A stretch of 64,000 bases of DNA from Yimella sp. cx-51 (GTDB lineage Bacteria > Actinomycetota > Actinomycetes > Actinomycetales > Dermatophilaceae). This document shows positions 25,606 to 44,856 of this stretch, one piece after another. Position 1 is the stretch's first letter. Each line of letters opens with the position of its first letter. A model generated the notes under the pieces. That model was not told where the DNA came from and ran no database searches. It saw only the letters and a program-made list of their open reading frames with translations. The stretch is taken from contig NZ_CP072113.1 in the NCBI RefSeq assembly GCF_017654605.1, positions 558,001-622,000 on the forward strand. The letters are read 5' to 3'. The position numbers and the translations under genes were made by a program.

Positions 25606-26012
25606 CAAACGCGACCTTTGTTCGCAAACGCGACCTTTGTTCGCAAACGCGGTAGCTGCAACCGCCGCACCTGCGAGGAGGCGCCGCGTTTGGCGCTGGA
25701 ACCGCCGCGTTTGTGTGTGGGCGGGAACCTCGGAGCTGTCGGCACGTGTCGTGCCGCGTTCGGCGCAAACGCGACCTTTGTTCGCAAACGCGGTAGCTGC
25801 AACCGCCGCGCCTGCGAGGAGGCGCCGCGTTTGGCGCTGGAGCCGCCGCGTTTCTGGGGGAGCGGGAACCTCGGAGCTGTCGGCACGTGTGGTGCCGCGT
25901 TCGGCGCAAACGCGACCTTTGTTCGCAAACGCGGTAGCTGCAACCGCCGCGCCTGCGAGGAGGCGCCGCGTTTGGTGCTGGAGCCGCCGCGTTTCTGGGG
26001 GAGCGGGAACCT
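25606..26012. repeat. Three tandem copies of a 141-bp palindrome-rich repeat
   Basis: The landmark GGTAGCTGCAACCGCC recurs at about 25651, 25792 and 25933, a period of 141 bp. Each unit contains several ACGCGG/CCGCGT palindromic segments, TTGTTCGCAAACGCG and a GGAGCGGGAACCTCGGA block; the first copy has one extra AACGCGACCTTTGTTCGCA duplication. Because 141 is a multiple of three, long reading frames stay open through it on both strands, but they encode only repeats and no gene is supported. Related palindromes occur at 26461-26545 and 43593-43675. This fills most of the 615-bp gap. Confidence 0.85.
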
Positions 26013-26456: not shown

Positions 26457-26460
26457 GCAG

Positions 26461-26545
26461 ACGCGGCCCTTACATCCACAAACGCGGCGGTTGTCCGCAG
26501 ATGCGCTAGTTGTAACTACCGCGTCCGCGAACAACCGCCGCGTTA
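26461..26545. repeat. Dispersed ACGCGG palindrome, large hairpin
   Basis: AACGCGGCGGTTGT (26481-26494) pairs perfectly with ACAACCGCCGCGTT (26531-26544), and an inner near-palindrome centred on AGTTGTAACT sits in the loop. It lies between convergent genes (DUF3263 and an SDR), so it may terminate both. Its core resembles the repeats at 25606-26012 and 43593-43675. Confidence 0.7.
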
Positions 26546-43176: not shown

Positions 43177-43205
43177 TTGCCTCGGCCGGAACGCCGTCCT
43201 AATCT
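43177..43205 (+). promoter_or_regulatory. Strong promoter of the structured RNA/12-codon ORF region
   Basis: TTGCCT (43177-43182), a 17-bp spacer and TAATCT (43200-43205) make one of the best housekeeping promoters in the window. The predicted start, about 43211, gives a short leader ending in a very strong ribosome site. Confidence 0.6.
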
Positions 43206-43210
43206 CGTGG

Positions 43211-43555
43211 GTACACGAGAAAGGAGGTGGTCCGACTCATGATTTCTACTCGGACGCGTGAGGTGGTTGCGCGCTAGCGCAATCCGTTCGGTCCGCCGTA
43301 GTGGCAGACCATCGGACGTGGCGGCCTTTCGCCTTTGGCGGGGGTAGCGGAAACCAACGCAATCGCCGCAGCCCGTGGGAGTGTGCATCGTCCAGCACAC
43401 GCCGGTGGAAGCCGGAGCCCACGGGCTGTTTCCGTGTGGGCCCTCGATGCTGTAGAAATAACCGCAGACGAAGATCTACCCCTTGGATCTTCGTCCTTGC
43501 GCCCGCTCCGCGGGCGCGACGGCCGGTGCGCACCCCTTGGCGTGCCGGCCGTCCT
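43211..43555 (+). ncRNA. Putative structured RNA between pdxH and the iron regulator gene
   Basis: The region has its own promoter and a chain of perfect helices. TTGCGC/GCGCAA encloses the stop of the 12-codon ORF. A three-way junction follows, with P1 CAGCCCGTGGG (43369-43379) pairing CCCACGGGCTG (43418-43428), P2 GTGTGC/GCACAC (43381-43400) and P3 CCGG/CCGG (43402-43415). Then come three hairpins: 43468-43494 (9 bp), 43499-43517 (7 bp) and 43518-43553 (9 bp). The last may terminate it. Two of these loops share ACCCCTTGG. I do not recognise an established RNA family. Confidence 0.5.
43239..43277 (+). CDS. 12-residue peptide ORF with a consensus ribosome site
   Basis: An ATG preceded at good distance by AAAGGAGGTGG opens a 12-codon frame, MISTRTREVVAR, ending in TAG. 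The stop codon lies inside a TTGCGC/GCGCAA hairpin. The near-perfect Shine-Dalgarno and strong promoter imply efficient translation of a tiny basic peptide, or use of its translation as a regulatory signal for the RNA downstream. No antibiotic-resistance or amino-acid biosynthesis gene follows, so it is not an ordinary leader peptide. Confidence 0.55.
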   Translation: MISTRTREVVAR

Positions 43556-43592
43556 CATTCTCTCGGGCACGCTCTGTGGCCTGCTCGCACAA

Positions 43593-43675
43593 ACGCGGCC
43601 CTTCCATTGACAGACGCGGCGGACGCTCGCAGACGCGGTAGCTGCAACTGCCGCGTCCGCGAAGAAGGGCCGCGT
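43593..43675. repeat. Dispersed ACGCGG palindrome, third locus
   Basis: ACGCGGCCCTTC (43593-43604) pairs perfectly with GAAGGGCCGCGT (43664-43675). The loop holds the near-palindrome GACGCGGTAGCTGCAACTG followed by CCGCGTC (43632-43657). The core is almost identical to those at 25606-26012 and related to 26461-26545. Between it and the regulator gene at 43842 nothing else is recognisable. Confidence 0.75.
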
Positions 43676-43841
43676 CTGCGACGAGCAGCCGCGTTCGTGC
43701 CGGCGGTGCAGCTGGGTAGCGGGTCCGGCACGAATATGCGCTGGTGCTGGAGGGCGGATGCTTGTCCGCTAGGTGGGCCGTTCCTGGCCAGTTCCGATGC
43801 CAATGGCCCAGTTGTCGGCAGCGGGTGGCAGGCTTGAGGGC

Positions 43842-44654: not shown

Positions 44655-44847
44655 TGTTGCCGAGTCCTGTCCGCCAGGTGGATCGATGAACACCGCCGGG
44701 CAGGAGCGGGGGACCCAATTCCGGGCGATTCCAGTGGAATCGTCCTTGGGGCTAAGTCACTGCACGTGCCGCTCGGGAGACACGCGCGCCAAGTGACCGG
44801 AGGACCTCCCTCCGAGCCCGACAGCTCACCTCGTAGGCGCAGGAGAG
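44655..44847 (+). ncRNA. ydaO/yuaA-type (c-di-AMP) riboswitch
   Basis: Conserved blocks of the ydaO/yuaA aptamer are visible in order: TTGCCGAGTCCTGTCCGCC, CAGGAGCGGGGGACCCAAT, TTGGGGCTAAGTC, then CCTCCGAGCCCGACAGCTCA and CCTCGTAGGCGCAGGAGAGG. In actinobacteria this riboswitch commonly lies upstream of cell-wall hydrolases such as NlpC/P60 and Rpf proteins, as here, and switches them off when c-di-AMP is bound. The last block merges with the ribosome site of the following gene, so translation control or termination at the end of the aptamer are both possible. Confidence 0.85.
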
Positions 44848-44856
44848 GTATTTCAC

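Follow-up and report, generated by a model that had tools for sequence, protein, structure and literature searches.

In the 64,000-nucleotide stretch of the Yimella sp. cx-51 genome that we analyzed (the window), a predicted promoter occupies positions 43177 to 43205 of the forward strand, with a −35 element TTGCCT at 43177 to 43182, a 17-nt spacer, a −10 element TAATCT at 43200 to 43205, and AT-rich DNA upstream. Comparison of homologues supports this assignment, as TAnnnT is found at the matching position in 159 of 186 homologues, and 118 of the 186 have TTG 17 to 18 nt (rarely 19 nt) upstream of it. On the same strand, we predict an RNA of ~225 nt (43213 to 43437), with a 5′ end, ACAC, placed from the promoter spacing and a 3′ end placed past a terminator-like stem. 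Positions 43213 to 43435 of this strand match Rfam family RF02471 (Ms_IGR-5) over model positions 1 to 184, with a score of 62.1 bits against a cutoff of 45 and an E value of 2.2e-11. We therefore identify the region as this genome's copy of Ms_IGR-5, a published small RNA of mycobacteria and Streptomyces. A sequence-only reading of this DNA had named a known Rfam family as a refutation of its proposal; the match removes the novelty of the RNA and leaves standing the claim that it is coding. The promoter, ribosome site, and 12-codon open reading frame (ORF) described in that reading were confirmed in place when the sequence was checked, and the homologues bear out its view that the RNA is a separate unit that has a strong promoter, a real 12-codon ORF, and an elaborate structure.

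In the published sections that we consulted, IGR-5 is presented as a discrete small RNA, first named in an M. smegmatis paper that we know through PMC10454040; it has RNA-seq support in S. lividans (PMC8079986) and appears as a small RNA transcription unit in S. avermitilis (PMC8780764). The section of PMC4974804 that reports ribosome footprints describes them for the M. abscessus and M. smegmatis homologues of MS_IGR-5, states that footprints cover most small RNAs and may partly be RNPs, and names no ORF for MS_IGR-5. In the parts of the text that were searched, PMC3828370 does not list IGR-5, a survey of coding small RNAs (PMC5521070) does not mention Ms_IGR-5, and PMC11678152, PMC6418233, and PMC10654065 contain nothing on it. 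As far as we searched, a conserved ORF, a full 16S rRNA complement, or a pseudoknot of Ms_IGR-5 was not found in print. Thus, the RNA is known, whereas its character as a coding, ribosome-docking, and pseudoknotted molecule appears to be undescribed. It has long been filed as noncoding, and both RNA-seq and Ribo-seq have detected it in mycobacteria and Streptomyces, yet it appears to be a micro-mRNA with an elaborate structure.

Matches to the Rfam RF02471 model were found in 37 of 58 related genomes and, across the phylum, in 88 of 396 genomes, at one copy each, and in none of 14 control genomes. A phage or mobile origin was rejected on the basis of this single copy per genome in the 37 and 88 genomes and of zero matches in viral contigs. 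The R1 model, which covers the 5′ domain, matched 181 of the 396 phylum genomes at an E value of ≤0.001, with the matches between 1e-3 and 1e-8 accepted by E value alone; among the matches listed, ~155 of the 181 genomes have one at ≤1e-8. Detection of Ms_IGR-5 would approximately double with a broader model and a corrected structure. Six genomes (G036, G111, G157, G168, G189, and G345) have two R1 matches each, and G382 and G422 of genus group g61 have none, in contrast to most of the g61 genomes listed. A scan with a DNA pattern found at least 120 stretches in named genomes, and among the matches listed (80 titles), nearly all are from Actinomycetota, including Acidimicrobiia and Thermoleophilia; the RNA appears to be kept from these classes to Streptomyces. 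One pattern locus, L120, is labeled Acidobacteriota; its peptide is identical to that of an Actinomycetota locus, L074, and it may be misbinned.

For comparative analysis, removal of 12 duplicates gave 186 distinct homologues, 180 of which were aligned by sequence only (L075 and five short loci were left out). L075 and L073, the latter with no start inside the scanned range, were left out of the tables of start-codon triplets. Adding 40 further loci gave an enlarged set of 226, from which five loci with short downstream DNA were removed for the pseudoknot test (n = 221). Since the loci found by the DNA pattern had been preselected for the Shine-Dalgarno (SD) sequence and GAGGTG, 75 homologues obtained without the pattern served as the fair set.

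We compared the start, frame, and stop of the 12-codon ORF (MISTRTREVVAR*; 43239 to 43277, forward strand) among these homologues. In 225 of the 226 loci of the enlarged set, the SD sequence is followed at suitable spacing by a start codon, and an in-frame stop codon lies 14 to 15 nt past GAGGUR; the sole failure, L073, has a TTG just beyond the scanned range that is in frame by eye. The distance from GAG to the stop is 15 nt in 214 of the 225 and 14 nt in 11, and the stop lies exactly five codons past GAG in 185 of the 186 homologues (TAG in 155, TGA in 18, and TAA in 12). Of 170 ATG, GTG, or TTG triplets located 11 to 18 nt past GGAGG, 164 are in frame. In the pattern-free set, the stop is in place in 74 of 75 loci, and start triplets are in frame in 66 of 68. 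A chance ORF is ruled out by this conservation of start, stop, and frame (164/170 triplets; 225/226 homologues), and we have little doubt that the ORF is translated. The start codons (n = 225) are TTG (88), ATG (71), GTG (42), CTG (13), ATC (4), ATT (4), and ACG (3); these, as well as all three stop codons, interchange among homologues, and the ORF is mostly 10 to 15 codons long. In six loci (L061, L064, L066, L067, L113, and L192), an ATC, ATT, or ACG start is combined with a full-length SD sequence; these are the kind of start codon that IF3, the product of infC, discriminates against.

Eleven loci of deep clades read the shared GGAGGTGG core in a different frame; their stop codon remains 14 nt past GAG, and the peptides encoded in this other frame, such as MSDHSGGGSS, are unrelated to the usual M(x)3RTREVAAR. 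Judged by these alignments, conservation extends to the start, the stop, and the length of the ORF but not to its peptide. The codon-level comparison of the 12-mer that had been suggested earlier thus found start, frame, and stop kept but not the peptide, and it gives no support to the peptide-sensing riboregulator that had been suggested with it, since the peptide is unconserved and the frame itself differs in one set of clades. The 11 loci with unrelated peptides argue that translation, not the peptide, appears conserved, and it is likely that translation, rather than its product, is what matters. Among distinct 12-codon ORFs, 54% have Ser at codon 3 versus 25% expected, and this excess, which arises through two codon families (TCN in 43 and AGY in 21), may reflect some selection on the peptide.

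Upstream of the ORF lies SD1 (AGAAAGGAGGTGGTCC; 43218 to 43233, forward strand), a 16-nt complement, with one G-U pair, of the 3′ tail of 16S rRNA, which in this organism reads GGATCACCTCCTTTCT. Genome-wide, the exact sequence GAAAGGAGGTGRTCC occurs only at SD1, apart from two 16S ends; the 15-nt core of SD1 has copies elsewhere only at these two ends, and near matches to the core are at the level of a reversed-pattern control. SD1 pairs all 16 nt of the 16S tail in 163 of the 186 homologues and at least 14 nt in 185 of them, and full 16-nt pairing is seen in 67 of the 75 homologues that were not selected by pattern. The predicted duplex of SD1 with 16S rRNA has a free energy of −27.8 kcal/mol versus −9.2 kcal/mol for AGGAGG. 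The 5′ GUCC that follows the SD sequence is mostly kept in the frame-shifted clade, where the GGAC of the ORF is lost or changed, which suggests that it is probably retained for pairing with 16S rRNA and not with the ORF. A second site, SD2 (GAGGTG, codons 8 and 9; 43260 to 43265, forward strand), lies 15 nt before the stop codon and ends six nt ahead of the last sense codon. This site hardly varies among homologues, though it is partly base paired to a variable partner; GAGGTA replaces it in two of them, L249 and L275.

The homologues also make it highly likely that the RNA adopts a new fold made of P1, P3, and a pseudoknot between the GGAC of the ORF and a 3′ loop, all on the forward strand. 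In P1, CACG (43214 to 43217) pairs with CGTG inside the ORF (43257 to 43260); columns 4-47 and 5-46 of the alignment of 180 homologues are 99 to 100% paired, have three or more pair types, and give the strongest covariation, and three of the four pairs change on both sides among 44 diverse sequences. The covariation score of P1 plus P2 was matched in 0 of 500 shuffles. P2, which would pair the 5′ GUCC with the ORF GGAC, was rejected as the main pairing because it has no double change in the 44 sequences, its flanking signal is weak, and GUCC outlasts GGAC. In outer P3, GGTGGTTGCG (codons 8 to 11; 43262 to 43271) forms 10 of 10 pairs with CGCAATCGCC (43358 to 43367), and columns 56-116, 58-114, and 59-113 covary in the 180 homologues. 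In inner P3, CGCTAGC, which spans the stop codon (43272 to 43278), forms 6 of 7 pairs with GGTAGCG (43343 to 43349); this helix also covaries and is present in the Rfam structure. The 3′ domain (43369 to 43428) is an 11-bp stem (43369 to 43379 with 43418 to 43428) around two hairpins, then TTT, and is terminator-like; its stem columns, 124-182 to 133-173, covary.

The predicted pseudoknot pairs GGACG of the ORF (codons 5 and 6; 43252 to 43256) with CGTCC in a loop of the 3′ domain (43389 to 43393). Columns 44-145, which adjoin GGAC/GUCC, and 39-150 covary in the 180 homologues, and the complement of a locus's own ORF 6-mer occurs downstream in 73 of the 221 loci versus 21.9 ± 4.0 after permutation (0 of 1,000), in tests that, like our other permutation tests, ignore phylogeny. 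Three shifted controls of this test gave no signal. Compensated changes in the pseudoknot include GUGACC/GGUCAC, GUGACG/CGUCAC, GCGACC/GGUCGC, and GGAUG/CAUCC. For most members of the frame-shifted clade (among them L241, L242, L245 to L247, and L256), no partner was found, although the ORF and SD1 remain, so the pseudoknot, by this comparison, is not universal in the family.

For the copy in the window, the minimum free energy (MFE) was −112.3 kcal/mol, compared to −93.0 ± 5.0 kcal/mol for shuffled sequences (z = −3.83), and none of 200 shuffles was as stable. The unconstrained MFE structure is without P1 or P3, and imposing both gave −97.1 kcal/mol, a gap of ~15 kcal/mol with the pseudoknot uncounted. 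The MFE fold does contain two elements described in the sequence-only reading, namely, a stop-codon hairpin and an 11-bp stem closing two inner hairpins; the former competes with the better supported long-range P3. Three further hairpins that it described (~43455 to 43555) do exist but are not part of the conserved RNA, because they are outside the Rfam match and the two homologues of the same genus, L007 and L022, have a different sequence past the 3′ stem. Two neighboring hairpins at 43455 to 43560 have in common the loop word ACCCCTTGG, which is present in a single copy in the genome.

The window sequence lies above the Rfam gathering cutoff from end to end, and inner P3 and the 3′ stem agree with the Ms_IGR-5 entry. 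In contrast to our model, the entry is filed as a small RNA ("Actinobacteria sRNA Ms_IGR-5"), and its structure pairs the SD sequence with the end of the ORF and is without P1, outer P3, and the pseudoknot. The Rfam helix between the SD sequence and the ORF end can pair in 71 to 99% of alignment cells, never above the expectation from column composition. Identity with the Streptomyces RNA scr2736 was rejected, as scr2736 is RF02831. We found no tRNA-like domain of the tmRNA type; ARAGORN, when run on the window, gave one tRNA-Arg only, which lies elsewhere.

These features can be joined in a candidate mechanism. When the RNA is folded, the loop between P1 and the pseudoknot would contain SD1 and the start codon, and because of this position, a 30S subunit could dock through its anti-SD sequence and leave the RNA fold unmelted. 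On geometric grounds, the pseudoknot at +14 to +18 would block the mRNA entry side, and the 30S subunit would be held until initiation. Translation of the short ORF would then melt the pseudoknot, followed by P1 and P3, and the GAGGUG of SD2, which by a similar geometric argument is spaced to pair with the last sense codon in the P site, could hold the terminating ribosome. Since the fold and ribosome occupancy would exclude each other, the RNA would be a ribosome-gated switch or trap with its effect in trans, and we assign this 30S-trap or ribosome-gated mode a probability of roughly 0.5. The fuller proposal, that a phylum-wide RNA is kept for translation and not for its peptide, that the whole 16S tail docks, that the 30S subunit is held against a pseudoknot that the ORF builds, that translation of the micro-ORF in whichever frame is alone able to unlock it, and that the RNA, acting in trans, senses or buffers free ribosomes, is tentative, and we place it somewhat below even odds. 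If the ribosome-gated reading is true, Ms_IGR-5 would be an RNA device that senses or holds ribosomes on its own. The chances are about evenly balanced that this account as a whole, of an independent transcript that is a micro-mRNA as much as a small RNA and works as such a switch or trap, is correct.

The nearest mechanism is ribosome entrapment by E. coli rpsO/S15, as an analogy and not as membership. The section of PMC8470358 that we consulted describes a pseudoknot by the start codon and a ribosome held in a nonproductive complex; the predicted pseudoknot strand of the window, at +14 to +18, is placed comparably, with an SD sequence that would be accessible. Unlike rpsO, the RNA is followed by no ribosomal-protein gene, its SD sequence is super-complementary, and it has no known protein ligand. 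Within the window, no ribosomal-protein gene lies beside it.

SgrS and RNAIII are dual-function small RNAs, that is, separate small RNAs with a short ORF, and their peptides are conserved and functional. A classical RNA of this type, in which a regulator that base pairs through, for example, the GUCC loop or the 3′ strand of P3 also encodes a bioactive micropeptide, would account for an independent transcript with a translated-looking ORF and for the excess of Ser at codon 3 through two codon families. However, of the features of this class, the conserved ORF is present and the conserved functional peptide is absent: unlike in SgrS and RNAIII, neither frame nor peptide is conserved, the peptides being variable and the frame changed in 11 homologues. 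The GUCC loop, moreover, has an internal partner, and we regard this explanation as unlikely. We also doubt that the ORF serves to keep the RNA coated with ribosomes, and thus stable or correctly terminated, with the 3′ domain as the functional part of an ordinary small RNA. Conservation of start and stop without a conserved peptide fits this idea, as does the covarying 3′ stem, but the ORF codons covary with the 5′ end and the 3′ loop, beyond the needs of protection. It is very improbable that the RNA is noncoding and the ORF a by-product of constraints on the RNA sequence. The GAGGUG and GGAC codons are indeed constrained by pairing, but start and stop codons interchange and yet the frame is strict (164/170 triplets, 225/226 homologues).

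A leader-peptide attenuator would control the downstream gene, which in the window is a co-oriented gene of the DtxR family located ~340 to 400 nt from the RNA. Leader peptides of the whiB7 or amino acid type have a short ORF, alternative pairings, and a terminator-like stem, as does this RNA; unlike them, it has no conserved co-oriented gene. By gene calls that relied on a simple GC-position rule, 100 of 170 loci have a convergent downstream gene and 70 a co-oriented one. In several relatives, the RNA lies between PdxH and DtxR-family genes in both orientations (one way in L007, L011, L015, L019, L022, and L028 and inverted between the same neighbors in L010 and L016), and the neighbors vary between families. 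Gene order largely refutes the attenuator, leaving it hardly credible, and agrees with the absence of an obvious target gene noted in the sequence-only reading. Convergent neighbors and flipped orientation indicate that the RNA is its own transcription unit and not a leader or attenuator.

Elsewhere in this part of the window, a c-di-AMP (ydaO) riboswitch (53.5 bits) was found at 44684 to 44854, directly ahead of an NlpC/P60-like gene. Positions 43590 to 43710 hold a palindromic repeat with 56 matches in the genome itself (both strands, 68 to 100% identity), which recurs in the window at about 25606 to 25993 and 26458 to 26543 and looks like a dispersed REP/MITE-like element.
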